Below, in pieces: positions 19,514-53,269 of a stretch of DNA of 53,509 nt. Under the pieces are notes generated by a model. That model was given only the letters and a program-made list of their open reading frames with translations, searched no databases and had not been told where the DNA came from. Origin of the DNA: Emcibacteraceae bacterium (GTDB taxonomy: Bacteria > Pseudomonadota > Alphaproteobacteria > Sphingomonadales > Emcibacteraceae). The translations under genes were made by a program, and so were the position numbers. The stretch is from assembly GCA_021774795.1 (NCBI GenBank), contig JAJFIR010000015.1, forward strand, positions 1 to 53,509, written 5' to 3'. The stretch's first letter is position 1. Each line of letters opens with the position of its first letter.

Positions 19514-19521
19514 GATATATC

Positions 19522-25426: not shown

Positions 25427-25518
25427 ATAGTATTGTCCTTGTCTGACGATTATAGACATTATTATATCAAATGGGTGGTATCGAGGTCTTACAGCAATCC
25501 ATGAATATTTTACATTAT

Positions 25519-26756: not shown

Positions 26757-31149
<4,393 letters not shown>

Positions 31150-31153
31150 TTTG

Positions 31154-35073: not shown

Positions 35074-35087
35074 TTGATTTCAATCAA
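35074..35087. promoter_or_regulatory. perfect FNR box upstream of the P-type ATPase gene
   Basis: TTGATTTCAATCAA is an exact FNR/Anr consensus palindrome (TTGAT, 4 bp, ATCAA). A TAAAGT element at 35110-35115 would start transcription near 35122, placing the box centre about 41-42 bp upstream, the class II activation position. The resulting leader is about 130 bp. This suggests that the ATPase is induced under low oxygen. Confidence 0.75.
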
Positions 35088-35254: not shown

Positions 35255-37864
35255 ATGAATAACCATAACAACTACCACTCCATGTCTTCCGACGATATAA
35301 TCCAAAATTTTGGTGTTCAGCCAAATAAAGGACTTAATTTTAAAGAAGTACTCAAAAGACGCCTCACGTTCGGTGCCAATCGCCTCGCCAAATCTCAAAT
35401 AAAATCTGCACTCAAAATTTTAATAGATCAATCAAAAAGCATCTTGATTCTTCTTCTCTTCATTGTCGCGGGTCTTTCATTCTTCTTTGACGACCGCGCA
35501 GAGGCCATTGCGATTTTTGTTGTAATAGTTATCAACATTAGTATCGGGTTTTGGGCAGAAAGCAACGCATTATCATCTATGGCTGCACTTCGTAAAATGG
35601 GCCGAGCAACAACCAAAGTTCGACGTGAAGGGGTGCTAAAATCAATACCGGATGAAGACATAGTGCCAGGAGATGTCGTTATTCTCGAAGCAGGTGATGT
35701 TGTCACAGCCGACATTAGACTGCTTGAGAACAGCAATTTGCAATGCGACGAATCTTTATTGACAGGTGAATCCGTTCCTATTGATAAGTCGACTGATGTT
35801 ATCGCGAAACATACACCTATTCACAGCCAATCCAATATGCTGTTCAAGGGAACGATAATCACGAAAGGGTCCTGTTTGGGAATCACTGTTTCCACAGGTG
35901 ATAAAACAGAACTCGGTAACATTTCAACGCTAACTAATACCGCTATTAGTGCTATATCTCCACTCGAAAAACGTCTCCGGAACTTATCAGAACAATTATT
36001 GATCGCCGTTCTGGTTATCACCCTTTTAGTAATTATCGCCGGCATAATTAGCGGTCGCGATGTTATATTAATGGTAAAAACCGGAATGGCACTCGCGGTC
36101 GCGGCAATCCCGGAAGGGTTGCCACTAGTGGCAACCCTTGCTCTTGCGCGAGGCATGTGGAAACTGGCCAAACATAACGCGTTGATAGAGCAGCTTTCCG
36201 CGGTAGAGACCCTAGGCTCGGTTAATATCATTTTCACCGACAAAACGGGCACGTTAACAGAAAATAGAATGACGGCGCTATCATTAATCGTTCCAGATGA
36301 ACCAGATAAAAATAGTCTCTCTGCCCACGATGAAACAACTCAAAAAGCTCTTGGTGTTTGTGCATTATGTTACAGCGGGAATGATGCAAATCATTTAAGC
36401 GACCCAATGGAAATCGCGTTGATTAAAGCGGCAGAAAAGGCGGGGGTTTACACAGCCGCAACCGAAAAACGATTTCCACGGATCGGTGAAGAGGCTTTTG
36501 ATCCAAACACTCGTATGATGGCAACAATCCATAAGAACAATGAAAATTTTCTTTATATGGTTAAGGGTGCCCCCGAAGCAATCCTAAACGCCTCTTCGCA
36601 AATTGCTCACCGAAAAGAAGATATTATATTGTCTCATGATAAACGAGTTTTCTGGGCTGAGCAGATTGAAAAATTAGCCCAAAATGGCGTACGTGTGCTC
36701 GCACTCGCAGAAAAAACAGCTGATAACTCAAACGAGCCGCACGATAAAAATCTTACATTTCTGGGCCTCGTCGGTCTTAGTGACCCACCACGCAAGGATG
36801 CCGCCGCCGCCGTAAGTGCCGCACAAGATGCCGGAGTTCGCGTTATAATGACCACGGGCGACAATGCCGTGACCAGTGCAAACATAGCGAGAGCCGTTGG
36901 CATAACTAGCGAGGTCGATGAACCTGTGGTCGAGGGAGGCACTTTAAATTTTCTGGAAAACCTAAGTCAAGATGTCCGCAATAAACTTTTATCCACATCC
37001 ATTTTTGCGCGCATGTCACCGACACAAAAACTCAATTTAATAGAATTGCATCAACAATATGGCTCAGTCGTTGCCATGACGGGCGATGGTGTAAACGATG
37101 CACCGGCGCTCAAAAAAGCGGATGTAGGTATTGCGATGGGTATACGGGGTACTGAAGTCGCTAAACAGGCTGCAAAAATGATTTTAAAGGATGACGCATT
37201 CGCATCTATTATTATAGCCATCCAGCAAGGCCGGATCATTTATGCCAATATCCGTAAATTTGTCATTTATCTGCTCTCTTGCAATTTAAGTGAAGTTTTA
37301 GTTGTCACCCTTTGTATGCTTGCGGGGCTGCCTTTGCCACTTTTACCTTTACAAATACTCTTCCTCAATTTAGTCACTGATGTTTTTCCAGCACTTGCGC
37401 TTGGGTTTGGAAAAGGTGACGAAGAGATACTAAAACGACCGCCACGGCCCAAATCTGAAGAGATTCTGATGCGGCGCCATTGGTTGGCAATCCTCTACTA
37501 TTCCATACTGATGACCTTATCGGTGGTGGGAGCTTTTTTATGGGCCTTAGCACAGCCAAATCACACCGCCGATTATCCGCAAACTGTAGCTTTCTTAACG
37601 TTAGCATTTGGGCAACTTTGGCATGTCTTTAATATGCGTAGCAGAAAAGAGCCCTTAATTAGCAATCAAGTCATGAAAAATCCGTTTGTTTGGGCCGCTA
37701 TTTTATTATCTATAATATTAATTTCGATAGCTCTTTACTGGAATATCTTAGCGAATATTCTGCAAATTACGCCTCCAGACAATAAGGGGTGGTTTGTTGT
37801 GATAATAGCCAGTTTGCTACCGCTAGTTTTTGGCCAAATTGTGAAATCAGCATATACGCGGTAA
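35255..37864 (+). CDS. P2A-type cation ATPase, Ca2+-like
   Basis: An 869-residue P-type ATPase. Order: cation-ATPase N domain (about 5-60), actuator with TGES at 170-173, M4 IPEGLP at 285-290, phosphorylation Asp329 in FTDKTGTLTENRM, nucleotide domain, hinge [21 protein letters not shown], then M5-M10. Residues equivalent to the SERCA calcium sites are visible: CNLSE in M5 (Asn and Glu), NLVTD in M6 (Asn, Thr, Asp) and the Glu of IPEGLP. The M8 position that holds Glu in SERCA is occupied by Gln (FGQLW) by eye. So it probably moves Ca2+ or Mn2+ out of the cell. GAGGAG is 24 bp before this ATG, too far to be its ribosome site. Its 3' end overlaps hypE on the other strand by 18 bp. Confidence 0.9.
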   Translation: MNNHNNYHSMSSDDIIQNFGVQPNKGLNFKEVLKRRLTFGANRLAKSQIKSALKILIDQSKSILILLLFIVAGLSFFFDDRAEAIAIFVVIVINISIGFWAESNALSSMAALRKMGRATTKVRREGVLKSIPDEDIVPGDVVILEAGDVVTADIRLLENSNLQCDESLLTGESVPIDKSTDVIAKHTPIHSQSNMLFKGTIITKGSCLGITVSTGDKTELGNISTLTNTAISAISPLEKRLRNLSEQLLIAVLVITLLVIIAGIISGRDVILMVKTGMALAVAAIPEGLPLVATLALARGMWKLAKHNALIEQLSAVETLGSVNIIFTDKTGTLTENRMTALSLIVPDEPDKNSLSAHDETTQKALGVCALCYSGNDANHLSDPMEIALIKAAEKAGVYTAATEKRFPRIGEEAFDPNTRMMATIHKNNENFLYMVKGAPEAILNASSQIAHRKEDIILSHDKRVFWAEQIEKLAQNGVRVLALAEKTADNSNEPHDKNLTFLGLVGLSDPPRKDAAAAVSAAQDAGVRVIMTTGDNAVTSANIARAVGITSEVDEPVVEGGTLNFLENLSQDVRNKLLSTSIFARMSPTQKLNLIELHQQYGSVVAMTGDGVNDAPALKKADVGIAMGIRGTEVAKQAAKMILKDDAFASIIIAIQQGRIIYANIRKFVIYLLSCNLSEVLVVTLCMLAGLPLPLLPLQILFLNLVTDVFPALALGFGKGDEEILKRPPRPKSEEILMRRHWLAILYYSILMTLSVVGAFLWALAQPNHTADYPQTVAFLTLAFGQLWHVFNMRSRKEPLISNQVMKNPFVWAAILLSIILISIALYWNILANILQITPPDNKGWFVVIIASLLPLVFGQIVKSAYTR

Positions 37865-38887
37865 AATCTCACCAGCAGGCATATCTAAAATTCGCCTCCC
37901 ACCGATCGGGGTTTCTAGCGTGACCAGCCCGGGCTTGTTATCTGCAACCGTACCAATTATCGCAGCCTGCGGATTATAACGGTGCAGTATGTCAAGTACA
38001 CTATCCTGCTCCTGCGGTGCTATAAATGCGACAAAACACCCCTCGTTGGCAATATGCAGCGGATCAAAGCCAAGGATTTCGCAAGCACCGCGCACCGCTT
38101 CATCAACCGGAATGGCATTTTCCCGGATATCAATCTGCAATTTTGAAGCCGTCGCAATCTCGTTGAGTACAGCCGCTACGCCACCTCGCGTCGCGTCGCG
38201 CAGGCAATGTGGAATGATCCCAGCTTGCAAAATATCCTGCACGTAAGCTGATAAAGGTGCACAATCACTTTTGATATCGCTTTCAAACGAAAGTCCTTCG
38301 CGGCTGCCCATCACCGCCATACCATGGCGGCCAATGTCACGGGAAAGGATTACCACGTCATCCGACTTAACCTGATCTGGCGCAATGACATGGTTATGCT
38401 CCAGAACTCCAATTCCGGTTGTGTTGATATAAAGACCGTTACCACGACCGCGCTCAACAACTTTGGTGTCGCCGGTAACAATTGCGACATTTGCAACGTC
38501 TGCTGCCGTGCGCATTGCCCTCACCACCTGCCACAACGTTTCCATCGAGAGTCCTTCTTCCAGAATGAAAGAAACGGAAAGATATCGAGGTTTCGCTCCA
38601 CACATAGCAAGATCATTTATGGTACCATTCACAGCCAAGTTACCTATATTCCCCCCAGGGAAAAATAGCGGCGAAACCACAAAGCTATCCGTGGTGATTA
38701 CAATCTTGTCCTGGGGAATGTCCAGAACGGCGCCATCATGCGGCTGCACATCGACAAAGGCTGCCCTGAACAGTTCATCAATCAGCCTCTGCATCAACCG
38801 CCCGCCACCCCCATGGGCCATCATCACCGTAGGATAATCAGACAGCGGAACTGGGCAATTCATATTGGGGATATTCTTTTTTATCAT
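37847..38887 (-). CDS. hypE: hydrogenase maturation protein HypE
   Basis: A 346-residue AIR-synthase-like protein that dehydrates the thiocarboxamide delivered by HypF to make the cyanide ligands of the NiFe active site. The N-terminal part has MAHGGGGRLMQRLI (about 23-36), and GDTKVVERG lies near 140. The C-terminus ends PRIC, giving the required terminal cysteine (Cys346). Length is normal. It is the last gene of the hydrogenase operon, 6 bp after hypD. Its stop lies inside the convergent ATPase gene, so no ordinary terminator fits between them. Confidence 0.96.
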   Translation of the reverse strand: MIKKNIPNMNCPVPLSDYPTVMMAHGGGGRLMQRLIDELFRAAFVDVQPHDGAVLDIPQDKIVITTDSFVVSPLFFPGGNIGNLAVNGTINDLAMCGAKPRYLSVSFILEEGLSMETLWQVVRAMRTAADVANVAIVTGDTKVVERGRGNGLYINTTGIGVLEHNHVIAPDQVKSDDVVILSRDIGRHGMAVMGSREGLSFESDIKSDCAPLSAYVQDILQAGIIPHCLRDATRGGVAAVLNEIATASKLQIDIRENAIPVDEAVRGACEILGFDPLHIANEGCFVAFIAPQEQDSVLDILHRYNPQAAIIGTVADNKPGLVTLETPIGGRRILDMPAGEILPRIC

Positions 38888-38893
38888 GCGTTA

Positions 38894-39979
38894 TTATTCA
38901 TTCCCATACCTGTAATAGGCACTGCACGCGCCTTCCGCAGAAACCATCGGGGCGCCGAGCGGATGGTCAGGTGTACATTTGGAAGCAAATGCGGGACATT
39001 GCATTGGCTTCTTCAAGCCCTGCATAATCTCGCCGCTGATACATTCTGAACATTCCTTTTGCACGATATCAATCATATCAAAACGATACTCAGCATCTAA
39101 ATCCTCATATTCCGCTGTCAATTTCCATCCACTTTGTGGAATTTCACCAAGGCCGCGCCATTGCCGCGGGATAATTCGAAATACTTTTGATATCAGTTCC
39201 TGTGCTAGTCGATTACCATGCTCTTCAACAACACGGACATACTGATTTTCAACGTTTGTTTGGCCTTGCTCAAGCTGACTTATGCACATATAAAGTCCTT
39301 GTAAAATATCCAACGGTTCAAACCCGGTAACAACAATCGGCACCTTGTATCGGGACGAAATTGGTGCATAAGCCTCTATCCCCATCACAGTGCAAACATG
39401 TCCTGCGGCCAAAAAGCCCTCAACCCTGCATTCCGTATTGGAAAGAATGCTTTCCATTGCAGGCGGGACAAGAACATGCGAAACAAGCATGGAAAATTTT
39501 TTAAGCCCCATTTCCTTGGCCTGATAAGCAGCCATAGCATTCCCGGGGGCCGTAGTCTCGAACCCGACAGCAAAGAATACAATTTCTTTATCGGGATTAT
39601 CCCGTGCAATCTGAACCGCATCAAGCGGCGAATAAATGGCGCGGACGTCACCACCTTCGGCACGAACAGTCAAGAGATCTTTGCTTGAGCCCGGCACACG
39701 CAGCATGTCACCAAAAGAGCAAAATATTACATTGGAACGTGCGGCAATTTCGAGTGCCTTATCAATCTTTTCAATCGGTGTCACACAGACCGGACATCCA
39801 GGACCATGAACTAACGTAATCTCATCGGGCAACATATTCTGTATGCCGTAACGGACAATTGCATGGGTCTGGCCACCACAAATTTCCATAATTGTCCACG
39901 GCTTTTTGGTGATTTTTTTTATCGCCGCGACATATTTTCGTGCGGCTTGCGGATCACGATATTCGTCGAGATATTTCAT
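38894..39979 (-). CDS. hypD: hydrogenase maturation protein HypD
   Basis: A 361-residue [4Fe-4S] scaffold on which, with HypC, the Fe(CN)2CO unit is built. Signatures are present: [16 protein letters not shown] near 31-46, [10 protein letters not shown] near 60-69 with Cys64 and Cys67, [10 protein letters not shown] near 139, and a C-terminal cysteine cluster ([14 protein letters not shown] and [14 protein letters not shown]) that holds the cluster. The start overlaps the hypC stop by 4 bp (ATGA), as is usual for this pair. Confidence 0.96.
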
Positions 39980-40212
39980 ATCTCGACCTCACCGATCTGA
40001 TCCAGATATTCGAAAGTTTTCCGCGCTTCTTCTCCTTTAATTACGCTAATCGCGACGCCAGCATGGACAAGAATATAATCACCCTCTATGGCTTCAGGAA
40101 CAAAAGCAAGACTGGCTTCCTTGGTGATACCCCCGTAAGTGACCTTTCCCATGCGGCTGAAGGAATCTCTGCCGAATATTGCAATAATCCTTCCCGGTAT
40201 AGCGAGACACAT
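39976..40212 (-). CDS. hypC: hydrogenase assembly chaperone HypC
   Basis: A 78-residue chaperone beginning MCLAIPGRI, with the invariant Cys2 that carries the Fe complex to the large subunit. The start at 40212 is fixed by this motif and by AAGGAG 7 bp upstream; it shares one base with the hypF stop. The C-terminus [16 protein letters not shown] is typical. It works with HypD, encoded immediately downstream. Confidence 0.95.
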
Positions 40213-42464
40213 TATTGGCTCTCCTTTTTCTGTTCCCGTATGGCTGCCATGATTTGTCCTGCCGCAATACCGCCATCGCCGGGTGGAATACGGTAATGCC
40301 AATATGGCTCAAATCCCGCTATTTTTAGTGTGTTAATCGCATTCTCAAGTAATAGTTTGTTCTGGAAGCAGCCCCCTGTCAAGAGTACACGTTTGCTGTC
40401 CACCTCTTTAGCCACACTAACAATAATGGCACTAAGTGTATTATGAAATTTGCGTGCGATATCACAAACAGATACTTTTTCATCAATGTTATCAAGAATT
40501 TGCTCTAACATTTTTTGCCAGGCAATAACGTCTTCTTTGAGTTCAAAATCGTATATCTCTGTGTTATCTGACTTCATGGCGGCAAATTCTAATGCCATTG
40601 CGGGTTCTCCTTCAAAACTATTTTCTGAGGAAACGCCTGTGAGCACCGCAACCGCATCGAATAAACGTCCAACACTGCTGGTGAGAGGGCAGTTTATTTT
40701 TTTGTTTAGCGCCTCTTCTAACAATGCTGCGTATTTGCTGGAAAAACCAAGTTTCCTTTTCAACTCTGCCTCATACAGCAATCCAAATGCGGTCCGCGTT
40801 GGAGTCTTCACCGCAGCTTCTCCTCCTGGAAGAGGAAAGGACCTAAAATGAAAAACGCGGTCATAGCCCTCATCGGTAATCTGCAAGAACTCACCGCCCC
40901 AGATCGTACCATCATCACCGTAACCCGTACCGTCCCAGACAACCGCCAGAGCCGGGGTATCAATTTCATTATCAAGCAGACAAGACAACGCATGAGCATA
41001 ATGGTGCTGAACCGGTGTAACTTTGCTAAAGAGTGCCTGTGCCATCTGACTGGACCGGTAATCAGGATGTTTATCACAGGCAATGATATCCGGCTCAGTT
41101 TCATATAAATCACGCAGCATATTCTTCATTTTATCGTGATTTTCACAGGCCTGAGGTGTATTTAAATCACCAATATGCGGGCTCATAATCAGTTTATCGG
41201 CAAGGGCCAATGCAACTGTATTTTTCATATCGCCGCCAACAGAAGAAATGGACTTGGCTAATTTCTTATTTATCGTAAACGGTAATGGTGCGTAACCCCG
41301 TCCTCGTCTCAAAACCATATCTCTATCCGCCATAATTCTAACAACAGAATCCTCGACGCCATTATTAATCGGCCGGTTATGAACTAAAAACAGATCAGCA
41401 ATGCCCGACAAGCATTCCAATACTTTATATTCATCAATACATATCGGTTCATCGCGGCGATTACCGCTGGTCGCAATGATCGGAGTATTTAACTCCTGCA
41501 ATATCAAATAATGCAACGGCGCATAAGACAACATCATGCCGAGAAAAGGGTTACCCGGCGCAACAGATTTAGCTATTTTAATTTTAGGTTTTTTACGTAA
41601 CAAAACGATTGGCGCCGCTGGAGATAGCAGTAGATTTAATTCATCATCCGACACATCACAATATTTCTCTGATTCTTTGCCAGACGATACCATAACTGCA
41701 AAAGGCTGGCGCGGTCGACATTTGCGTTTCCTCAGCTTTTGTACTACTTCCTCGTTAGTAGCATCAGCAATCAAGTGGAAACCACCGAGCCCTTTAAGGG
41801 CAAGAATTTTGCCTTGCCGAACGGCATTCAACGCTCGCATCAAAGCATCTTCATGCTTGGCCACAACCGCCCCATCTATATCCCACAATTCCAGATGAGG
41901 CCCGCATTTCAGACAAGCAATTGGCTGTGCATGAAATCGGCGATTCAGCGGATTTTCATATTCTGCGCGGCACTCATCACACATCGCAAAAGTCGCCATC
42001 GTTGTCCGCTGTCTATCATAAGGCAGGCTCTTAATGATCGTAAAACGCGGTCCACAATTTGTACAATTGATAAAAGGATAGCGATAATGACGATCTGCTG
42101 TCGGATCATTCATTTCGGCCAGACAATCCGGACACACGGCCAGATCAGGCAAAATGGAGACAGACAATAATTTAGTAGGATCGCTTTCTATAATTTTGAA
42201 AAATTGGTCCTCACCTAAATCCAAACGCTCAGACACGAAATGATTAATCACAGCATTGTGCGGTTTGTCTTGCTGTAGCAGCTTTTCAAAGCTTGTGATA
42301 TTAACCGCTGCGCCTTCGACTTCGATAATAACACCGGATGCACTATTCTGAACCCAGCCACTCAATCTATGTTCTGTTGCCAGACGATAGACAAAAGGCC
42401 TAAAGCCGACACCCTGTACTGCCCCGTTCAACTTATATTGATATCGTTCTTGTTTATTATGCAT
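40212..42464 (-). CDS. hypF: carbamoyltransferase HypF
   Basis: A 750-residue enzyme that uses carbamoyl phosphate to transfer a carboxamide to HypE. Domains in order: acylphosphatase (GAVQGVGFRPFVYRLA, about 14-29), two Cys4 zinc-finger motifs (CPDCLAEM with CTNCGPRF, about 112-145; CDECRAEY with CLKCGPH, about 160-190), a YrdC-like domain (about 210-385), and the Kae1-like domain with HHYAHALSCL (about 480-489). All catalytic segments appear intact. It overlaps hypA by 8 bp and hypC by 1 bp, so it is tightly coupled. Confidence 0.95.
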   Translation of the reverse strand: MHNKQERYQYKLNGAVQGVGFRPFVYRLATEHRLSGWVQNSASGVIIEVEGAAVNITSFEKLLQQDKPHNAVINHFVSERLDLGEDQFFKIIESDPTKLLSVSILPDLAVCPDCLAEMNDPTADRHYRYPFINCTNCGPRFTIIKSLPYDRQRTTMATFAMCDECRAEYENPLNRRFHAQPIACLKCGPHLELWDIDGAVVAKHEDALMRALNAVRQGKILALKGLGGFHLIADATNEEVVQKLRKRKCRPRQPFAVMVSSGKESEKYCDVSDDELNLLLSPAAPIVLLRKKPKIKIAKSVAPGNPFLGMMLSYAPLHYLILQELNTPIIATSGNRRDEPICIDEYKVLECLSGIADLFLVHNRPINNGVEDSVVRIMADRDMVLRRGRGYAPLPFTINKKLAKSISSVGGDMKNTVALALADKLIMSPHIGDLNTPQACENHDKMKNMLRDLYETEPDIIACDKHPDYRSSQMAQALFSKVTPVQHHYAHALSCLLDNEIDTPALAVVWDGTGYGDDGTIWGGEFLQITDEGYDRVFHFRSFPLPGGEAAVKTPTRTAFGLLYEAELKRKLGFSSKYAALLEEALNKKINCPLTSSVGRLFDAVAVLTGVSSENSFEGEPAMALEFAAMKSDNTEIYDFELKEDVIAWQKMLEQILDNIDEKVSVCDIARKFHNTLSAIIVSVAKEVDSKRVLLTGGCFQNKLLLENAINTLKIAGFEPYWHYRIPPGDGGIAAGQIMAAIREQKKESQ

Positions 42465-42720
42465 CTACTTTGACGCTATCCAACAAAATGTCTTGAGCAT
42501 TGGGATCATTTGTATCATCAAGCTGCTCTATTTCAAGCATTGCTCCCTCTGCTGAAGTTCCCTTTGAAAATTCTTCAAAATGCTCAGCGAAATGACCCGG
42601 TGTAATATGGGAGAGAGCCCCAAGATTGACCTTGATACCGACAATCTTGCATCCGTCATTTTCTTGCGAAATATTTTCGATTTTGCGAAACAAATCCGCC
42701 ATCAACGAAAATTCATGCAT
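42457..42720 (-). CDS. hypA: HypA-like nickel chaperone lacking the zinc finger
   Basis: An 87-residue protein. The N-terminal [14 protein letters not shown] has the invariant His2 that binds nickel, and the body IKVNLGALSHITPGHFAEHFEEFSKGT matches HypA. The C-terminal part, where the two CxxC pairs of the structural zinc site sit in HypA of about 113 residues, is missing: the protein ends DPNAQDILLDSVKVDA with no cysteines. I recall similar zinc-less HypA forms with group 3b hydrogenases, so this is probably a subtype rather than damage. It overlaps the protease gene by 8 bp and hypF by 8 bp. hypB is absent. Confidence 0.85.
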   Translation of the reverse strand: MHEFSLMADLFRKIENISQENDGCKIVGIKVNLGALSHITPGHFAEHFEEFSKGTSAEGAMLEIEQLDDTNDPNAQDILLDSVKVDA

Positions 42721-43180
42721 TAGAGGTATCCTTTATATTATGCACTACAAGTGTTTTAATATCCTCCAACGCCGCCATCATTTCCGGTGACAATGTTTCC
42801 GTTGCGGCAAATGACTTCCCCTCAATACCGTAAAAAACAATCTTTGGCGGTAATTTGTTCAGTGCCCGGGCGAGTTCAACCGCCTCAGCAATCCCGAATG
42901 CATGGGTTGAGTAACTGCGAAAATTATCCGGCAGACCTTGCTCCTGCAAATCTATATAATGAATGGTCCCTGGTTCTGCACATGAAGAAACCGCGTCGAC
43001 CAGAAAAACATTTTTCCTACTCTGCCAAAGGTCAATCAGCGATGCCGGTTCGCCACTATGGGTAATCACTTCAACATCAGGTAAACAAAGCGTTTGTATA
43101 TTATCCACCAGAACACAGCCCAAGGCATCATCACCACGAAAACGGTTTCCAATTCCTATAATCAGTGTCTTTGGATTCAT
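42713..43180 (-). CDS. hydrogenase maturation endopeptidase
   Basis: A 155-residue protease of the HybD/HycI/HyhD family, which removes the C-terminal tail of the large subunit after nickel insertion. The start [21 protein letters not shown] carries the nickel-sensing acidic residue of the family near Asp17-Asp18. A second conserved segment, [15 protein letters not shown] (about 90-104), contains the ligand His94. The gene overlaps the large-subunit gene by 4 bp and hypA by 8 bp. Confidence 0.93.
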
Positions 43181-44481
43181 GATCGCTCCACATCAAGTTT
43201 GAGAAAGTGGGTCGCACAGGAAATACAAGGATCATAATTTCGAATTGCTTGCTCCGCATGCCATTGCAACGTTTCATCCGGCTTACCGATATATTGCGGC
43301 ACAAACTTCCAGAGGTCATCCTCAATCATTTTTTGATTCTGCGAGGTCGGCGGGATGATGTCAGCATCAAGGATTTCACCTTTCTCATTAATTTTATATC
43401 GGTGATAAAGAATACCACGTGGCGCTTCAGTCGCTGCATACCCCATAGCAGCCTTCGGTTCAATTTCTACGAAAGGCTCCACCGGTTCTTGGTAATCATC
43501 AATAATCCGCAGTGCTTCCTCACAGGCATATAACACTTCGATACTACGCACAATAATACTACGGAATGGATTACGCTCGACCTTTCCTAGTCCCGCTTTT
43601 TTGGCGATTTTTTGAATGTCAGTTGGAAACCGATCAAAATTGAGAGCATAACGCGCAAGCGGGCCAACATGATAGGACTGACCACTATCTTTCATAACAC
43701 AATGGAGAGCCGTGCTACGCTCTACATGGATTTCTTCAAAATGATCATCATAATTGGCCGCTGTGATATCGAGCCCTTTATTGGAAACGATGCGACCCTC
43801 ATTCATTGGATATTCGTTTGGATGTTGCAAAGATACGAAGGTATAATCCTGTTCAAAATCAGGAAAATCAAAAGTAGAAACCCAGTTTACTGTCTTCAGA
43901 GCGGCATCGCGGGCTTTCTCTATTTTCTCACGAAAATTCTGCATTTCCCTTTTGGTCGGAACTTTATAAAACCCGCCAACACGGACATTAACCGGATGTA
44001 TTTCACGGCCACCGATAAAAGACATAATCTCCCCGCCGGTTTTTTTAAGTTGAAGGCCTCGCTCGACTTCTGTCCGGTGGTCTTTCGCCATATGGACAGC
44101 ACTTTCATAACCGAGAAAATCTGGTGCGTGAAGCATATAAATATGGAGTGTATGACTTGATATCCATTCACCACAATATAACAAACGACGTAATTCTCGC
44201 AGCGGCCCATCAACAGTCACACCGAAAGCATCTTCCATCGCATGAACGGCACTCATCTGATACGCGACCGGGCATATCCCGCATATCCTGGCTGTAATAT
44301 CGGGTGCCTCGCTGAATTTCCGGCCACGCAAAATTCCTTCAAAGAAACGCGGGGGTTCAAAAATCTTCAGTTGCACATCTTCGAGCTTACCTTCATGAAT
44401 TTTTAAATACATTGCCCCTTCACCTTCAACACGGGCAAGATAATCAACCTTGATCGTCCTTGTTTTTGTACCTTCACTCAT
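43177..44481 (-). CDS. hyhL: [NiFe]-hydrogenase large (alpha) subunit, group 3b type
   Basis: A 434-residue catalytic subunit. The N-terminal ligand motif [11 protein letters not shown] (Cys67 and Cys70) and the C-terminal DPCISCATH (Cys419 and Cys422) give the four cysteines of the NiFe site. A tail FLKLDVERS after His425 should be cut off by the endopeptidase. I start it at ATG 44481 (AAGGAAA about 9 bp upstream; overlaps the small subunit by 8 bp), not at the longer 44550 reading, whose first 23 residues are unlike the family. Group 3b enzymes are cytosolic and reversible, using NADP(H) or NAD(H) as partner. Confidence 0.94.
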
Positions 44482-45253
44482 GACGGTCACTTTCCTTTTT
44501 AAAAGCGGAGCTTTGAGCATTATAGGTTCGAAACAGACGCACCAGATCATCTGTGATCATCCCTTTATCAAGCAACCAGTTTGCCAGTGATTCCGTATTC
44601 GGTGTTTCAGTGGGGCCAAAACACCCGTAACAACCGCGGTTATATGCAGGGCAAATCGCGCCGCATCCGGCTTGTGTTACCGGACCAAGACAGGGTGCGC
44701 CCTGCGTCACCGTAAGACAAGCCATACCACGTCGTTTGCACTCGATACAAACACTGTAGCGCGAGATATTCGGCTTACGCCCATGGAGGAAAGCCGTAAT
44801 GACTTCGAGCAATTGTCGCTTGTTGATTGGACAGCCCCGAAGCTCAAAATCAACCAGAACATGATCGGCAATAGCACTCGACGTTGCTAGCGTATTAATA
44901 TAATCGGGGTGAGCATAAACAATATCGATAAATTCCTTCACATCTTTGAGGTTGCGTAGCGCCTGAATACCGCCCGCCGTCGCGCAAGCACCTATCGTCA
45001 CGAGATATTTCGATTGTCTGCGTACGTCCTGAATGCGCTCCTTGTCCTCTGGCGTCGTGATTGAGCCTTCGACCAGAGAGAGATCATAAGGACCGGGGAT
45101 AAACGCCCGCGAAGCTTCCGGGAAATTGGCAATCTCGATTTCATCAGCCAAGGCCAGCAATTCATCCTCACAGTCAAGCAAACTGAGCTGGCAGCCATCA
45201 CAAGAAGCGAATTTCCAAACGGCAAGTTTTGGTTTTTGGTTAATCTTATTCAT
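44474..45253 (-). CDS. hyhS: [NiFe]-hydrogenase small (delta) subunit, group 3b type
   Basis: A 259-residue iron-sulfur subunit. The proximal cluster motif [11 protein letters not shown] (Cys18 and Cys21) is followed by GACATAGG, and a C-terminal half rich in cysteines ([37 protein letters not shown]) holds further 4Fe-4S clusters. No Tat signal is present, consistent with a cytosolic enzyme. It relays electrons between the NiFe site in the alpha subunit and the flavin subunit gamma. It precedes the alpha gene and overlaps it by 8 bp. Confidence 0.93.
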
Positions 45254-45272
45254 CCTTTGTCATCACTTACCC

Positions 45273-46115
45273 TTAAACCTCCCTCACCTTAAATAGATAC
45301 TCAACCTGATCAAACGCAAACACAGGACCATCTTTACAAATAAAGTGCGGGCCATATTGACAACGGCCACAATGTCCCAGTGCGCATTTCATATTCCGTT
45401 CCATCGAGATATATATATCCGAAGCTGCCAACCCCTTACCTAACAAAGCATGGGCCGTAAAACGCATCATAATTTCCGGCCCGCAGGTCAAAGCCGTGGT
45501 ACGTACCGTATCTATTCCTATTTTTTCTATTAGTTCGGTTACAACCCCGGCATGGCCATGCCATTCAGATCCTGCGCTATCGACGGTTAAAAACACCCTC
45601 ATATCATCCCTGTCATCCCATGACGCCAACTCGTCTTGAAACAAGATCATATCGGGCGTTCGTGTGCCGTATAATAAGGTAATAATGCCATAATCAGCAG
45701 AGTGAGAAATTAGATGATAAATCAGTGGCCGTAACGGTGCCAAGCCTAAGCCACCAGCGATTATTAAAACGTCCCGCCCTTTTACTTGCTCCAGCGGCCA
45801 ACCCTTGCCAAACGGACCTCGTACGCCGACTACATCGCCCACGCAAACCGAACATAGAGCCTTGGTTACCGATCCGATCGTCATAATAGTGAACATCAGG
45901 GTTCCCATTTCGAAAGAATTCCCACTCACAGAAATAGGAACTTCGCCATGACCAAAAACATAGAGCATATAAAATTGTCCCGGTGAAAAAGAGCTTACAA
46001 CATTGAATTCCGGCTGAAGGGTTAAAGTATAGCAGTCGGGGATTTCTTCCTGCATCTTTAAAACATGGAAAGGAACAGGCTGCATGGGATATTTTTTACT
46101 GGCCTCATATGACAA
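45273..46115 (-). CDS. hyhG: hydrogenase flavin/NAD(P) (gamma) subunit
   Basis: A 280-residue oxidoreductase of the ferredoxin-NADP reductase fold, related to the electron-transfer subunit of dihydroorotate dehydrogenase. FAD domain with [10 protein letters not shown] (about 58-67), NAD(P) domain with [13 protein letters not shown] (about 133-145), and a cysteine cluster [17 protein letters not shown] (about 248-264) for a 2Fe-2S centre. I propose a TTG start at 46115 (GGAG 7 bp upstream, overlapping the preceding gene), because homologues keep a YPMQPVPF-like start; the alternative is ATG 46085. It passes electrons to NAD(P)+ or receives them from NAD(P)H. Confidence 0.85.
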
Positions 46116-46587
46116 CTTGCTGCTCCGTACTATAAACATCCAGAATCCGGCGGCGGTTATCCTGCATCCGTTGCAACATGATTTGGGCAAATTGTTTCAT
46201 AAGCCGATAGCCCAGATCATAATCCTCTTCCACCTTACTACGCAAGCATTTACCGTTAAGGTGAATGACCTTGACTTTTGTCAGAGCACGAGAGTCAAAC
46301 TGGTTACGGTAAGGCGGAAATAACCATGAAAAGCCTGTAATATTATCTGCGCCACACTTTGAGATCGTCATCGGCCCACATGCTGGCATATAACTTTCAA
46401 CCGCTACCTCGCCTTTAAGGATCAAATAAAAGCTAACGGCTTCTTCTCCTTCTTTCAGTAGAAAATCCCCTATATCGAAATGCATGATTTTACCACAACC
46501 CGAGAGCAATTCGAGATGGCGGTTATCCATCTCTTTAAAAAACGACGCTTCAGCCAGATAATCCTTAATTGTCCTGATGTGTCCCAT
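46105..46587 (-). CDS. stand-alone cyclic-nucleotide-binding domain protein
   Basis: A 160-residue protein with a single cNMP-binding fold (about 8-130: [20 protein letters not shown] type beta-roll, split here at 39-58). The family's phosphate-binding cassette is not clearly conserved: [12 protein letters not shown] stands where FGE-ALL would be. The C-terminus (about 125-160) is helical, with no DNA-binding motif. It lies between the beta and gamma genes of the hydrogenase and overlaps both (beta by 23 bp, gamma by 11 bp). AAGGAG lies 6 bp before the ATG. A structural or sensing role within the hydrogenase complex is likely. Confidence 0.85.
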
Positions 46588-47716
46588 TTCGATCTCCTTC
46601 CTCGCTATCGCTAATTGCTTTGACTTCCTCAGTTAAATCAATGCCTACCGGGCACCAAGCAATACAGCGTCCGCATCCGACACAGCCCGATGAACCAAAC
46701 TGATCAATCCAAGTCGCCAGTTTATGCATCAACCACTGGCGGTAACGTGAACCGATTGAGGCTCGTATACTACCTCCATGAATATTGGAAAAGTCCATCG
46801 TAAAGCAGGAATCCCAGGTTCGCCAGCGCTCTGCATGTTCTCCTGTAAGATCGGTAACATCCTCAACGTTCGAACAAAAACAAGTCGGGCAAGCCATGGT
46901 ACAGTTCCCGCAGGCCAAACATCTTTTTTCGAGTTCTTCCCAGCGTTTATTATCATAATTATGATAGAGAACATCCTTTATATCAGTCATATCTACGGTG
47001 CGACCCATTTGCTTTTTTGCATTCTCAATATGGGTCGCCGCCGCTTGAAAATCATCCTGTTCCGCAGGACTGGTGGTTAATTCTTTCAAGATATCAGCCC
47101 CTACGTCTGATCCGGACTCAATCACAAAGTAATGCCGAGCCTCATCAATAATCTCAGTCAAAACAAGATCATAGCCATCATTAACTTTTGGTCCCGTTTG
47201 CATTGAGGTACAAAAACAGGTTTTTGCTGCCTGAGTGCAATTCACGGCAACAATAAGACAATCTTGCCGTCTACCTGTATAAATAGGATCCTGAAAAATT
47301 CCGCCCATAAAGACCTTGTCCTGAACTTGGATTGCATGCAATTCACAGGCACGAACGCCGATAAAAGCATATGTTGGCGGTGCATCCGCTTCCCCATCTA
47401 TTTCAAAGCCAGCACCCTTCTTTGTAGCCGACCACAGCTTGGTTTTCGATGGAAACAGATACTTCTTCCAGGAATGCGGACCAACATTATAACCGAACAA
47501 GGCATTATCATCGCGCCGTTTGAGACGATAAATTCCTGCTTCCTGTTCATCTGTCCAGCCAATCGGCAGATCATACATACTCTCCAAAACATCATAAAGA
47601 ATTGCGCCATCTCGCCTTGTTGGACCTACCGTTAGATAACCTTTTTCATTCAGTATCTTAAGAAGAATACCAAAATCATCAGGATCGAGACAGTGTGATT
47701 GCTGGGTTTGGTTCAT
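46565..47716 (-). CDS. hyhB: hydrogenase 4Fe-4S (beta) subunit, group 3b type
   Basis: A 383-residue iron-sulfur protein matching the sulfhydrogenase beta subunit. The N-terminal domain (about 1-235) has [19 protein letters not shown] and [13 protein letters not shown], shared with formate dehydrogenase/hydrogenase beta-like proteins. The C-terminal half carries two ferredoxin motifs, [14 protein letters not shown] and [14 protein letters not shown]. It channels electrons between gamma and delta. I use ATG 47716 because the longer reading starts at a TTG abutting the acyl carrier protein stop without a ribosome site; AGGAG is present but 13 bp away. Confidence 0.9.
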
Positions 47717-47758
47717 TAAAAATATTCCACTCCTGTTCTGCTCGAATTTAATATCCAA

Positions 47759-48004
47759 CTATGCGATATGTTCATCAAGATAGGCGATCATTTTATTGTA
47801 AGTCATCATGTGCGGATAGTCCGCCTCCGGCATTTCGATGTGAAACCGATTGCTCAGCGCCGTAATCAGATTGAGAAAATCCATAGAATCAATATCGAAC
47901 TCCTCCCGCAAATCTGATTCGCGGTCAATTATTGTAATTTCAATATCGGGCGCGATGCGGTAAACCTCTTCCTTCAATATATTTTCGATCTCACTGGTTT
48001 TCAT
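47759..48004 (-). CDS. acyl carrier protein
   Basis: An 81-residue ACP with the phosphopantetheine attachment motif FDIDSMDFL (Ser40). Acidic helices flank it, and the length is typical of stand-alone ACPs. Its ATG overlaps the E2 stop by 4 bp, and its stop lies 42 bp before the hydrogenase beta start, so it is part of the same operon. No fatty-acid synthesis or polyketide gene is near. Its placement directly after a 2-oxoacid dehydrogenase E2 suggests that it carries an acyl group made from or used by that complex. Confidence 0.9.
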   Translation of the reverse strand: MKTSEIENILKEEVYRIAPDIEITIIDRESDLREEFDIDSMDFLNLITALSNRFHIEMPEADYPHMMTYNKMIAYLDEHIA

Positions 48005-49197
48005 AACGTCTCCGGTTCCTGTAAAAAAATATCTATTGCGTTTAGAAAGAGTGCTCCTCTATGGCCATCGCTGACACGGTGATCCGCAGCCAAGGTGATT
48101 GTAGCGACCCGTCTGGCCTCTACTGTTTCGCCATTCACCCATGGGCGCATTGACGGGGTTCCAAAACCGATGATCGCAACCTGTGGCGGATAGATGATAC
48201 CATACAGGCTTTCGACACCACGATCCCCGAGGCTCGAAATGGTAATTGTCGCGTCGGAAATTTCCGAAGACCTAAACCGTCCGGCACGAACACGAGAAGC
48301 CAAATCTCGCAACGCTGACATCGCAACATCAAGTTCTAGGCTTTGTGCATCATGGATCGCCGGAGCAACAAGGCCTCCACCACGAATTTTAATTGCCATC
48401 CCTATATGAGCCGCCGCGCTCTGCTGAAAAAGACCATCGATAAAATGTCCATTGAACTCGGGAAATTTCCCTACTGCCCGTGCTACGGCCTTCAAATACA
48501 GTGCCCCCAACAGCAGCCGATCGGTGGGAGGTCGTACCTCATTGGATTTAATGACAAAATTCTCAGCTTTAGAAAGGTCAATCGTATGGGCCAGATAATA
48601 ATGTGGTATATCCCTTTTTGATCGTGACATTGCCGCGGCAATCGCCCCACGCATCCCCGTCATTTTCACAGGCCCTACAGCTGATGCTATTTCAATTGAT
48701 GTATCCGGCTTCCTACCAATCATTGCTTCAACATCAAATAGGGTAATTGCCCCGCCGGGTCCGGAAGCATTCTTTTTAAAGGATGCTAAATTCAGTCCTG
48801 ATGTCTCCGCCAATTGTCGCGCGGCTGGAGTTATCCGAAACCGCCTCCCTTTCTGGGGTTTAGCGAATTCGGGAACATTGTCAAACTCGTCAATTTCTGC
48901 AATTTCTGGAGTAACTTCAATGGGTACAATATGTGGTCGTGGCTTCAGTGTCTCGGCTTCGCGTGCCTGCTTTATTTTTGCAAGCGGCGTTCCCACCGGC
49001 ACCTTTTTGCCAATATCAACCAGATACTTCTCAAGAACCCCATCCTCGAATATTTCGATTTCAATTGCTCCTTTCTGGGTTTCAACAACGGCAATTACAT
49101 CTCCGCGATTGACTTGCTCATCAGGTTTTACTAACCATTCTACCAGAGTACCCGCCTCCATGTCAGCACCAAGTGATGGCATCAAAAATTCGCTCAT
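48001..49197 (-). CDS. 2-oxoacid dehydrogenase E2 (dihydrolipoamide acyltransferase)
   Basis: A 398-residue E2. An N-terminal lipoyl domain (about 1-76) has the lipoylated Lys42 in ETQKGAIE. A peripheral-subunit-binding domain follows at about 128-165 (RITPAARQLAETSGLNL). The catalytic domain spans about 170-398 with DHRVSDGHRG, His373 being the active-site residue. The peptide GQ is shortened compared with long E2s of several lipoyl domains. It should transfer acyl groups made by E1 to CoA. It overlaps the ACP start by 4 bp and follows the E1 stop by 3 bp. No E3 gene is in the window, so the general dihydrolipoamide dehydrogenase of the cell must serve it. Confidence 0.93.
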   Translation of the reverse strand: MSEFLMPSLGADMEAGTLVEWLVKPDEQVNRGDVIAVVETQKGAIEIEIFEDGVLEKYLVDIGKKVPVGTPLAKIKQAREAETLKPRPHIVPIEVTPEIAEIDEFDNVPEFAKPQKGRRFRITPAARQLAETSGLNLASFKKNASGPGGAITLFDVEAMIGRKPDTSIEIASAVGPVKMTGMRGAIAAAMSRSKRDIPHYYLAHTIDLSKAENFVIKSNEVRPPTDRLLLGALYLKAVARAVGKFPEFNGHFIDGLFQQSAAAHIGMAIKIRGGGLVAPAIHDAQSLELDVAMSALRDLASRVRAGRFRSSEISDATITISSLGDRGVESLYGIIYPPQVAIIGFGTPSMRPWVNGETVEARRVATITLAADHRVSDGHRGALFLNAIDIFLQEPETL

Positions 49198-49200
49198 ATC

Positions 49201-51204
49201 CTAACCTCTGCCCATCAAAGCTCTAGCCGCAGTGATGATTTGGGCCATTTTTGGAATTGCTGCTTGTTCAAGATGATAAGCATAAGGGATTGGCACCTCC
49301 TCGCTACACACGCGTGCCAAAGGTGCGTCGAGCTCAAAGAATGCTTCTTCTGCCAGACGCATACCAATTTCAGCCGCTAAACTACCCGATTTCCATCCTT
49401 CATCAACGATCAACGCCCGGTGGGTTTTCTTGACCGATGTGATGATTGTATCCATGTCAAGTGGTCTTAGGCTGCGTAAATCAATTACATCGGCGTTGAT
49501 ATTTTCTTTTGACAGTTCTTCTGCGGCTTCGAGGGTCTTAAAGAGTGATCCGCCATAAGTGATCAATGAAATATCAGACCCTTCACGGCGAAGAGCTGCC
49601 CGGTCAATGCCGACTGGCCCTGCGTTGGCGGCAAGCTGGCCGGAACGATTATAAAGCATGACATTTTCAAAGATCAAAACCGGATCCGGGTCCTCTAACG
49701 CCGTCCACAGCATGCCTCGGGCATCTTCCAAAGTGGCTGGAGCAAGAACTCTTAATCCAGGAATATGTGCGTACCAGCCTTCAAGACTGTGAGAATGCTG
49801 CGCCGCAAGCTGACGACCCGCCCCCGTTGCCATTCGGATCACCACAGGAACACCAAACTGGTTATTCGACATGTGACGGTACGTGGCCGCTGTGTTAAGA
49901 ATCTGGTCAAGGGCGAGCAACGAAAAATTCACAGTCATAACTTCAACAATTGGCCTCATGCCCGCCATCGCGGCGCCGATCCCTGCTCCAGTGAATCCTG
50001 ATTCAGACAGCGGGGTATCGCGAATTCTTTCCGGGCCGAATTCATCAAGCAAGCCTTTGCTGACAGCGTAGCATCCACCATACCGACCTACATCTTCACC
50101 CATCAGAAAAACTCGCTCGTCTTTTTTTAAGGCATCAACAATGCCTGCCTTAACTGCTTCCCGGTAAGTTGTTTCAACCATCTCAGCTGCCTGTCTCGGT
50201 TCTGCTGGTAGTGCTAGCCATTCAGATGCCATGACATGACGGGTCAAATTTTCTACTGGTTCCAAGGTTCCGACTTCGGCAAAGGCTACAGCTTCATCAA
50301 TTTCATCATCAATCTCAGCTTCGATCATTTTGATCTCTTCTTCATGAATCAGACCGGCCTCTAGGAGCCAACTTTTGAACCGCTCAATCGGCTCTTTAGC
50401 ACGCCAACTTTCAACCTCCTCCTTTGATCGATAAAGCTGGGGGTCGAACATTGAATGGGCGCGAAAACGGTAAGTTCTACATTCAAGAAAATAAGGTTCC
50501 CCTGTTTCACGGATGCTATGTAAGGCCCGCCGAGCCGCCGCTTCAACCGCAACTATATTCATACCGTCAACAACTTCACCACGGATAGCATAGCTGCTTG
50601 CTTTCGCGTTAATATCTGTCTCAGATTCCGAAAGGCTAAGGGCCGTGCCCATTGCATAACCATTATTCTCACATATGAATAGAACCGGTAGTTTCCAAAG
50701 CGATGCAATATTTAGGCTTTCATGAAACTCGCCCTCTGCCACTGCGCCTTCGCCAAAGAAACACGCTGTTACTGCATCCTGCTCGCGCATCTTGTCAGCA
50801 AGGGCCAACCCGACAGCCAGTGGCAAGCCGCCACCGACGATGGCATTGCCGCCATAAAAATTAGCATCACTGCTGAATAGATGCATAGAACCACCGCGCC
50901 CGCCAGAACAGCCTTCTGCCTTGCCGAACATTTCGGCCATGACGGATTTCATCGGCAGCCCTCGCGCTAATGCGTGACCATGCTCACGGTATGTTGCGAC
51001 GAGACGGTCTTCTTCTGTGAGTAAGGGGATAATCCCGACCGCCACTGCTTCCTCCCCATCATAAAGGTGAAGAAAACCCCGAATTTTTTCTTGAGTATAA
51101 AGTTCCGCACATTTTCCCTCGAAACGACGTATGCGTATCATTCCGACAAGCAGCTCGTGAGCATGGTCGTGATTTAGATGAGGCCTTAGATCGGGTTCAG
51201 TCAT
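49201..51204 (-). CDS. fused E1 alpha-beta of a pyruvate-type dehydrogenase
   Basis: A 667-residue thiamine-dependent E1 with alpha and beta subunits joined. The alpha part (about 1-325) carries the thiamine pyrophosphate motif [19 protein letters not shown], ending in ENN, near 168-195. The beta part (about 345-667) has [14 protein letters not shown] (about 366-379) and the transketolase-C region [15 protein letters not shown]. It decarboxylates a 2-oxo acid, most likely pyruvate because an acetate-CoA ligase precedes it, and passes the acyl group to E2. The start overlaps the ligase stop by 4 bp. Fused E1 forms like this occur in gene clusters for low-oxygen growth, as I recall. Confidence 0.92.
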
Positions 51205-52952
51205 TGTTCATCACTCTCCAGCGTAGAAATATCACCCTCGGGAAGTCCTAGTTCGCGTGCTTTAAGAAGGCGACGCATGATTTTACCGCTTCGTGTTTTT
51301 GGAAGGTTTTTACGAAACGCGATGTCTTTGGGTGCAACTGCCGGTCCAAGCTGCTTTCGGGCATGTCCAATTAGATCAAGGCGTAATTCTTCGTCTGGCT
51401 GATAATTCAATTTTAGGACTACAAAAGCCTTGACGATTTGCCCGACCGTTTCATCGGGTACCCCGATCACGCCAACTTCGGCAACCGCTTCGTGTTCCAT
51501 CAATGCGCTCTCAACTTCAAAGGGGCCAATCAGATGGCCCGCACTCTTGATTACATCATCACTACGTCCGACAAACCAGAAATAGCCATCAGAATCACGC
51601 ATGGCAAGATCACCACTTAAATACCAGTCGTCCGAGAAACACTTCTTGTAGCGTTCATCTTCGTTGAGATAGGCGCGCATCATTGACGGCCAACCCGGCT
51701 TCAGCGCCAATTCGCCTATCGCCAGAGGTTTGGCGGCTTCTCGAACGCCATCTTTGAATTTTTCAACGATGCCTGCGGTGATACCGGGCAGCGGTTTGCC
51801 CATGGATCCGGGCTTGATGTCCATTGAAGCATAGTTAGCGATCATGATGCCGCCGGTTTCAGTTTGCCACCAATTATCATGAAATGGCATTCCGAAAACT
51901 TCATTACCCCAGATCACAGCCTCAGGATTTAAAGGTTCGCCAACACTTGCCATAAAACGAAGTTCAGATAAATTATGCGCTTTTGGTAACTCACTTCCCG
52001 CTTTCATTAACATTCTAATCGCAGTAGGGGCAGTGTACCAGACATTGACATGTTCCTCTGCGAGCGTCTGGTACCATCGGTTGGTATCAAATTCTGCTTC
52101 ATCCACGATCATGGTGACCCCGTTAGTAAGTGGGGCAATAATTCCATATGATGTTCCTGTAACCCAGCCCGGATCAGCGGTGCACCAATAAATATCATCT
52201 GGCCGCAGATCAAGTGCAATCTGACCCGTGACATGGTGAGCAACTACCGCTTCATGCACATGAACCACCCCTTTCGGTTTTCCTGTAGTACCGCTCGTAA
52301 AATGCAGAAGTGCCTTATCCTCCTGCGCCATGGGTTCGACGGCGAAATTCGGTGATGCTGATTTCATTAAACCGTCTAAATCGCGTAAACCTGTATCCAC
52401 CTCGCCACCATCGACAAGTAAAATTTCTTCCAACTTCGGAAGTTCATCACGCAACCCTTCCACCTTGCGTTTGTATAGCTTCCTTGAGGTAATCAAAAAC
52501 TTCGCTTTGCCAATTTCCATGCGCACTTTAATTGGCTCCGGCCCGAACGCAGAGAACAAAGGACAAAACACACAACCAGCCTTCAATGTCCCCAGCGCGG
52601 CTATATAAAGCTCAGGTACGCGACCAAGTAGGGAATAAACCGTGTCTCCTGTCTCAGCACCAAGAGTTTTCAATACATTAGCGAACTGATTACTCTTCTG
52701 CTCTAAATCGCGATAAGTAAAGTCCGTGCGCTGCCCATCTTTAGCAATCCAGCGTAAAGCCACTTTGTCGCCTTTGCCACTGTTTACGTGGCGGTCGATT
52801 GCTTCATATGCGATATTCAGTTTGCCTCCCGGAAACCCGTCCAAAAGTGCTCTCGCATTATTCCAGGAAAAGTCAGCAACCTCATTCAGGTAATCCGGCA
52901 TATTGGTCTGCCTGACTTCTTCCAGTGTTTTGTGGATGATATCATGGGTCAT
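51201..52952 (-). CDS. acsA: AMP-forming acetate-CoA ligase (AcsA type)
   Basis: A 583-residue ANL-superfamily ligase. The AMP-binding motif [18 protein letters not shown] lies near 218-235, WWQTETGG near 350-357, and the C-terminal lysine in [11 protein letters not shown] is Lys557, the residue usually acetylated for regulation. The shorter length (versus about 650) and [21 protein letters not shown] start resemble Bacillus-type AcsA. It makes acetyl-CoA from acetate, or a related short acid. It is the first gene of the operon, which runs through E1, E2, ACP, hydrogenase and hyp genes. No good ribosome site precedes the ATG. Confidence 0.92.
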
Positions 52953-53228: not shown

Positions 53229-53269
53229 ATTATGTCTTAATCTGCATTCCACATATTGATCTTGATCAA
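53229..53269 (-). promoter_or_regulatory. class II FNR promoter of the acsA-hydrogenase operon
   Basis: TTGATCTTGATCAA at 53256-53269 is a perfect FNR/Anr box. Downstream on the minus strand, CATAAT (53234-53229) matches the -10 consensus at five of six positions and predicts a start near 53222. That puts the box centre about 40-41 bp upstream, the class II position at which FNR contacts RNA polymerase. It predicts anaerobic induction of acsA and the genes co-transcribed with it. Confidence 0.82.

Follow-up and report, generated by a model that had tools for sequence, protein, structure and literature searches.

A pyruvate dehydrogenase module joined to a group 3b [NiFe]-hydrogenase operon in an Emcibacteraceae bacterium

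A probable fifteen-gene operon of two parts

In contig JAJFIR010000015.1 of an Emcibacteraceae bacterium (Alphaproteobacteria; assembly GCA_021774795.1), whose 53,509 nucleotides constitute the window analyzed here, we found a run of 15 minus-strand genes (37847-52952) in which acsA, the pyruvate dehydrogenase (PDH) components E1 and E2 and an acyl carrier protein (ACP) precede a group 3b [NiFe]-hydrogenase and its maturation genes. The order is acsA–E1 (fused)–E2–ACP–hydrogenase beta–cNMP (cyclic-nucleotide-binding-domain protein)–gamma–delta–alpha–protease–hypA–hypF–hypC–hypD–hypE. With ATG starts as selected, neighboring genes are spaced by -23 to +42 bp, the deepest overlap being 23 bp and the widest gap, 42 bp, separating ACP from beta. 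All 15 genes listed in an initial annotation of this DNA are present under the identities it gave them, and the spacing supports the single operon it proposed, which we consider likely and which would be read as one transcript. Family identities come from Pfam and NCBIfam, with the open reading frames (ORFs) of the window typed from about 12.9 kb rightwards:

51201-52952, minus strand: acsA, acetate–CoA ligase (AMP-forming) (NF003313, 918 bits, cut-off 729)
49201-51204, minus strand: fused PDH E1 alpha-beta (TIGR03182, 445 bits, cut-off 394; PRK09212, 401 bits, cut-off 321)
48001-49197, minus strand: dihydrolipoyl acyltransferase (E2); lipoyl domain PF00364, E3-binding domain PF02817, catalytic domain PF00198
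47759-48004, minus strand: ACP with the DS phosphopantetheine serine (PF00550)
46565-47716, minus strand: hydrogenase beta (4Fe-4S) subunit (PF17179); likely ATG 47716, ORF open to a TTG at 47758
46105-46587, minus strand: cNMP protein in a HoxI-like position (PF00027)
45273-46085, minus strand: hydrogenase gamma, FAD/NAD(P)-binding subunit (PF00175, PF10418); ORF open to a TTG at 46190
44474-45253, minus strand: hydrogenase delta, small subunit (PF01058)
43177-44481, minus strand: hydrogenase alpha, large [NiFe] subunit (PF00374); likely ATG 44481, ORF open to 44550
42713-43180, minus strand: hydrogenase maturation protease (TIGR00072, 113 bits, cut-off 47)
42457-42720, minus strand: short HypA-like protein, 87 residues (PF01155, positions 1-67 of 112)
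40212-42464, minus strand: hypF carbamoyltransferase (family match)
39976-40212, minus strand: hypC, ATG at 40212 (family match)
38894-39979, minus strand: hypD (family match)
37847-38887, minus strand: hypE (family match)

The E1 is fused, as first proposed: the E1-alpha model matches residues 14-325 and the E1-beta model residues 342-664 of a single 667-residue ORF, and both pyruvate-type models (TIGR03182 and PRK09212) exceed their cut-offs. Three Pfam domains pass the cut-off in E2, with the NCBIfam E2 equivalogs falling short (best 194 of 445 bits), and ACP stays under the NCBIfam ACP cut-offs (35 of 70 bits). A housekeeping-type PDH operon on another contig of the genome includes a lipoyl-bearing PdhB, as fits an alphaproteobacterium, and a dihydrolipoamide dehydrogenase (E3; L036:10046-11464, TIGR01350, 552 bits; L and G handles denote loci and genomes throughout), and the E1-E2 pair of the 15-gene operon is therefore an extra PDH.

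The hydrogenase displays four subunits by Pfam (4Fe-4S beta, FAD/NAD(P) gamma, small delta and large alpha), and the nickel-ligand CxxC cysteines of alpha, C68/C71 (L1) and C420/C423 (L2), are invariant across 13 aligned sequences; the group 3b label of the initial annotation is supported by this subunit make-up and by these cysteines. The gamma subunit carries an NAD-binding domain, and the partner of the enzyme would be NAD(H) or NADP(H). By the Pfam model, alpha is the single [NiFe] large-subunit ORF of the genome (3.9 Mb, 58 contigs). An archaeal-type sulfhydrogenase label (NCBIfam HydABGD, ShyABCD) was discarded, its cut-offs being missed (ShyA 272 of 700 bits, HydA 265 of 880 bits); beta likewise scores under the cut-off for the NCBIfam sulfhydrogenase beta subunit. 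No hypB is found among the 15 operon genes, and a cobW/HypB-family search of the genome gives four matches, of which the one typed, L022, is MeaB. HypA in these 3b clusters is about 87 residues long, keeps an MHE-like start, has lost the zinc-finger cysteines and mostly has a C-terminus resembling DPxAQDIxLxSVEV; the zinc finger (C-x2-C...C-x2-C) is absent from the window copy and from all other readable copies in a comparison of 38 rows, of which L063 is unreadable and L028 and L105 are identical in sequence.

Our collection comprises the 80 best-matching of at least 574 hydrogenase relatives. In 65 of these loci, which come from numerous phyla, the beta-cNMP-gamma-delta-alpha-protease order is complete, hyp genes often coming next; of the 72 loci having both beta and gamma, 70 have a cNMP-domain gene in between. 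The four subunits, cNMP protein, protease and hyp genes are shared by the window with group 3b clusters (HyhBGSL and hyp) such as those of Nitrospira marina, an alphaproteobacterial methanotroph and Mycobacterium smegmatis. In PMC8115632, the N. marina cluster is described as four subunits plus six accessory proteins, with the hydrogenase increased in the proteome under low O2, and PMC12319191 reports a cNMP/HoxI protein in the methanotroph cluster, which the cNMP protein of the window recalls. A difference in the window is that acsA, PDH E1, E2 and ACP precede the hydrogenase within its operon.

Distribution of the two modules

The acsA-E1-E2-ACP order recurs in 28 loci examined, some interrupted by contig ends. 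ACP is a regular member of this module: it is present in 25 of them, the contigs of the remaining three (L195, L198, L201) ending before it, and the DS serine is kept in all 25 aligned copies. Modules with the gene order of the window, and with E1 59-78% identical per aligned piece, occur on plasmids or chromosomes of six genera, with plasmid copies in Sulfitobacter, Leisingera, Sinorhizobium, Methylocystis, Cupriavidus and Rhodococcus; unlike the window, the six inspected modules have no adjoining hydrogenase. Hydrogenase beta is absent beside ACP in 25 of the 28 module loci, three of these 25 ending before ACP. A universal stress protein gene lies near the module in all six inspected plasmid stretches. 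The literature searched, which covered few subscription papers, yielded no paper that names the acsA–PDH–ACP module or describes a role for it, and none on a PDH-hydrogenase linkage.

Some further features of module islands were noted in passing. The plasmid modules L038, L040, L043, L044 and L045 stand among universal stress genes and, depending on the plasmid, genes for Hsp20, FtsH/Lon, PPS or lipid metabolism. In G028, the stretch next to the module (L186:13833-19243) has weak alpha matches (26%) and a 38% hypF match, which suggests a further [NiFe]-hydrogenase in that island.

The two modules co-occur far above chance, direct adjacency being merely one outcome. In a sample of 385 genomes of the class, alpha is found in 11, the module E1 in 17 and both in 7, with about 0.5 expected (Fisher 2.5e-8). 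The seven (G000, G028, G091, G093, G095, G227 and G247) belong to seven different families by taxonomy codes; the other module genomes are G154, G096, G015, G057, G165, G316, G116, G145, G087 and G131. With the genome of the window removed, the module occurs in 6 of 10 hydrogenase genomes against 16 of 384 (Fisher 3.6e-7). A sample of 398 genomes of the phylum gives alpha in 10, the module in 14 and both in 4 (Fisher 1.8e-4), or, with the genome of the window removed, the module in 3 of 9 hydrogenase genomes against 13 of 397 (p = 0.002). The phylum alpha counts were taken at E <= 1e-110, leaving out 17 weaker matches (33-37% identical), and the whole module was inspected in the 4 of the 14 phylum module genomes that are common to the class sample. 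The two samples overlap in members, and Fisher's test ignores relatedness; the module cut-off (E1 of about 61-63% identity or more, other E1 proteins reaching at most 50%) was set post hoc, and absences are soft, few first-look candidates being scored per genome. Beyond these samples, an E1 search of the genomes of 42 of the 80 collection loci found the module in five (G409, G392, G413, G386 and G397), and in G386 the two modules share a 370-kb contig, with about 28 kb between them.

In three of the seven co-occurring class genomes, beta immediately follows ACP and is encoded on the ACP strand, namely in the window (gap of 42 bp), G095 (= L029; 4 bp) and G227 (= L197; about 135 bp), the contig of the last ending within beta and the remaining hydrogenase cluster being on another contig. 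In G091 and G028, both modules are present about 20-26 kb apart. The orders of G095, G227 and G326 (2, 2 and 5 genomes searched) contributed no new adjacency case.

History of the join

The nearest hydrogenase relative, the metagenome-assembled genome locus L046, has an alpha 88% identical to that of the window, and its DNA is 78% identical across 9,644 bp, from window position 47729 to the end of the L046 contig. This identity stops 13 bp ahead of the beta ATG; upstream of the L046 beta there is instead a divergent 924-residue ORF, in a region matching P-type ATPase, and the module is absent. The genome of L046 gives no E1 match at 1e-60. The module thus entered, or was lost, just ahead of the hydrogenase.

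The module tree (28 rows; acs, E1 and E2) places the window with Sulfitobacter and G154 (100/100), G227 with Sinorhizobium (97/97) and G095 elsewhere; the three adjacent cases need 3 changes, and the share of the 200 bootstrap trees that unites them is 0%. For alpha, a 94-row tree joins the window to L046 and a Flammeovirgaceae metagenome-assembled genome (100), G095 to a Paraburkholderia plasmid (95) and G227 to G091 (99). Both trees use LG+G4 without a mixture model, and the alpha tree is a quick search built without hydrogenase reference groups; it warns of a long-branch join of G247 with Rhodococcus, and in the module tree an unusual residue composition is flagged for the window and L200. 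Because the three adjacent cases are non-sister in either tree, the join probably arose repeatedly and in the same order, three separate joins being the simplest reading; one old join followed by many losses is not strictly excluded. A fourth hint comes from G091, in which a different PDH (E1 alpha of type TIGR03181, E1 beta and E2; L030:16505-19693) starts 82 bp past hypE.

A putative FNR-type promoter upstream of acsA

FNR, FixK and related proteins recognize the same site. Searching the window for TTGAY-N4-RTCAA gives only two sites in 53.5 kb, one upstream of acsA and the other upstream of a convergent P-type ATPase gene:

53256-53269, minus strand: perfect palindrome of the FNR/ANR/FixK type, TTGATCAAGATCAA, about 304 bp ahead of acsA
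35074-35087, plus strand: the other perfect box of this type, 167 bp ahead of the P-type ATPase gene
35255-37864, plus strand: convergent P-type ATPase, whose best scores are for the calcium type but stay below cut-off; a possible co-regulated neighbor

By position count, a -10-like CATAAT at 53234-53229 puts the acsA box at about -41 of a plausible start, and the distance between box and hexamer would fit a class II FNR-type promoter, which has TTGAT-N4-ATCAA some 41 bp ahead of its transcription start. Two perfect sites in the window are in themselves not significant, 12 of 100 shuffles having at least 2, and the significance of the box comes from comparison across loci. Of the 25 usable acsA loci (of 28; L193, L197 and L202 were left out), 9 carry a box in the 350 bp ahead of the gene, as against a mean of 0.02 and a maximum of 1 in shuffles. 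Control spacers of 0-3 and 5-9 give 0 sites each in the acsA regions, and among 20 same-letter half-sites with N4, TTGAT gives 4 and all others 0; the random-window background includes coding DNA and is a weaker control. Upstream of beta, 6 of 77 usable loci (91 given) have the box, all other spacings together giving 2 and the shuffles a mean of 0.07 and a maximum of 2, and one of the six boxes (L026) overlaps the estimated start; gene starts at distant loci were estimated from alignments. The low-oxygen setting envisaged in the initial annotation thus gains a promoter signal of the matching type, and we predict that an FNR-type regulator acts on the operon.

A strong promoter and terminator between ACP and hyhB, which the initial annotation named as grounds for refuting its reading, were not found: by pattern search, the 42-bp gap has no promoter- or terminator-like site. 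The nearest same-strand sites are a weak promoter-like match (9/12) at 48004-47976, inside the ACP gene, and a terminator-like one at 48326-48307, inside E2; across the region, promoter-like matches number 42 as against 28.7 in shuffles and terminator-like ones 17 as against 16.5. We considered whether the long leader of acsA holds an RNA element and dropped the idea, Rfam giving no match at the gathering threshold anywhere in the window.

Proposed function and alternatives

PDH yields acetyl-CoA, CO2 and NADH, and high NADH slows the enzyme. We propose, leaning slightly towards this explanation, that two modules, each with a distribution of its own, became linked head-to-tail as one operon behind a single FNR-type promoter to form a low-oxygen cassette, in which PDH would give acetyl-CoA and NADH and the 3b hydrogenase would release the electrons as H2. 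The first module would convert pyruvate to acetyl-CoA and NADH and interconvert acetate and acetyl-CoA, with its E3 probably borrowed from the housekeeping PDH operon; the second would supply a group 3b [NiFe]-hydrogenase working in the cytosol, together with its maturation genes minus hypB. When respiration stops, PDH might thus sustain carbon flow to acetyl-CoA, for acetate, ATP or storage, with the hydrogenase reoxidizing NAD(P)H, the putative shared carrier, through H2 release in a reaction that could reverse once H2 or oxygen returns. AcsA might recover acetate or, in reverse, yield ATP from acetyl-CoA, and possible roles of ACP are in lipoylation, acyl transfer or the synthesis of lipids. 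This coupling of acetyl-CoA to H2 is plausible and has gained indirect support.

Fermentative routes from pyruvate to H2 include pyruvate formate-lyase with formate hydrogenlyase and pyruvate:ferredoxin oxidoreductase with hydrogenase. In common with these, the proposed route would direct pyruvate carbon to acetyl-CoA and electrons to H2; it differs from them in pairing an aerobic-type, NAD-linked PDH with an NAD(P)-linked hydrogenase. That 3b enzymes serve at low oxygen has support in print from the N. marina proteome (PMC8115632) and from M. smegmatis, whose 3b enzyme makes H2 from NAD(P)H as recounted in PMC13332983; in the hypoxic H2 production related there (Berney et al. 2014), the enzyme dumps NAD(P)H as H2, as proposed for the window. 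Relative to M. smegmatis, the link of PDH and AcsA to a 3b hydrogenase would be new.

Several observations weigh against the proposed coupling. No E3 is encoded among the 15 operon genes, and AcsA usually runs towards acetyl-CoA, itself yielding no NADH. The perfect box is missing from 16 of the 25 acsA and 71 of the 77 beta upstream regions, and the FNR-type signal is consequently recurrent rather than universal, with other regulators or weaker sites likely at the remaining loci. A sigma-70-like match (11/12) at 53106-53077 lies closer to acsA than the box does and could represent a second, oxygen-independent start. The G227 pair may not be one operon, given its gap of about 135 bp and a near-FNR palindrome in it with one half-site base off, and that genome has 10% contamination. 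The modules are on separate contigs in G093 and G247 and about 2.6 Mb apart in G589, with none at its hydrogenase, and 10 of the 17 class module genomes have no alpha match at E <= 1e-40. Finally, no acs, E1, E2 or ACP match is found within up to 10 kb on each side of any of the 80 collection hydrogenase loci (8 without beta, 72 with it and 63 with at least 1 kb upstream of beta). Direct adjacency of the modules is therefore rare. The idea that the linkage of acsA-E1-E2-ACP to hyhB is conserved holds only in part: the modules co-occur and several are close by, but the order is not a conserved unit, being present in 0 of these 80 loci and absent in L046. With the adjacent cases also non-sister, we set aside the linkage as a conserved operon.

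The best-surviving alternative, a real possibility that we nevertheless regard as unlikely, is that only regulation is shared: separate low-oxygen or stress modules would gather in islands and come under one promoter, with their reactions uncoupled. The plasmid copies of the first module fit such gathering, as they stand amid stress and metabolic genes (Hsp20, FtsH, Lon, CBS, PPS) with no hydrogenase annotated in the inspected stretch; the hydrogenase module likewise stands beside universal stress genes without PDH, the Rhodococcus plasmid has both modules on opposite strands about 21 kb apart, and the convergent ATPase has an FNR-type box of its own. However, the three non-sister cases share order and strand, and a second, different PDH adjoins hypE in G091, both pointing to PDH in particular.

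A lipid or polymer sink, in which ACP and PDH feed fatty acids, wax esters or polyhydroxyalkanoate and the hydrogenase is a parallel valve, seems to us rather improbable. The constancy of ACP in the module speaks for it (25 of 28 loci, the other 3 ending at contig ends), as do the fabI that accompanies acetate genes on the Sulfitobacter island and the wax ester synthases and 3-oxoacyl-ACP synthases of the Rhodococcus island; against this, ACP is the sole fatty-acid or polymer gene among the 15, and no partner enzyme for it was identified.

We doubt still more that the hydrogenase works in uptake mode, consuming H2 for NAD(P)H as AcsA activates scavenged acetate, for mixotrophic persistence or biosynthesis. 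The AcsA does score as an acetate–CoA ligase (918 bits), and 3b enzymes are described as reversible in PMC12319191 and PMC8115632. Yet PDH would add NADH rather than need it, and the FNR-type boxes suggest lack of oxygen, under which H2-derived NAD(P)H would presumably have no acceptor unless nitrate or the like is respired. Chance adjacency through rearrangement or assembly, for which one might cite the module-free L046 and the end of the contig 557 bp past acsA, is highly improbable in view of the tight spacing, the recurrence in G095 with a 4-bp gap and the enriched co-occurrence.

Surrounding genes

At its end, the operon meets the convergent P-type ATPase, into whose end hypE extends 18 bp; P-type ATPase matches (30-38%) also lie near other 3b loci (L046, L082, L104, L112, L115 and L123). 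Elsewhere, the window carries a metal-efflux cluster (16406-26085) with an RND pump, an adaptor with a CusF domain, an outer-membrane protein, a heavy-metal P-type ATPase (YHS/HMBD) and an AraC-type regulator, a second RND efflux set (26757-32434; pump, adaptor and outer-membrane protein) and a plus-strand ORF of 220 residues (33948-34610) without a Pfam match. An insertion-sequence gene at the contig end was considered and rejected, with no supporting Pfam or NCBIfam family and no plasmid DNA match.

Implications

More broadly, and as a tentative conjecture that we think has somewhat less than an even chance, aerobic Alphaproteobacteria may possess a transferable, FNR-controlled fermentation cassette, in which an NAD-linked PDH with its own ACP has repeatedly been fused to a 3b hydrogenase. 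If the proposed coupling is true, neither pyruvate formate-lyase nor ferredoxin-linked enzymes would be needed to turn pyruvate into acetyl-CoA, CO2 and H2. The acsA–PDH–ACP module, undescribed in the literature searched, spans plasmids and chromosomes of several phyla. Group 3b hydrogenases are widespread across many phyla, yet the pathway that supplies their electrons is often unclear; their repeated joining to a specific PDH module would name a likely electron source, one that is testable in culturable Alphaproteobacteria.

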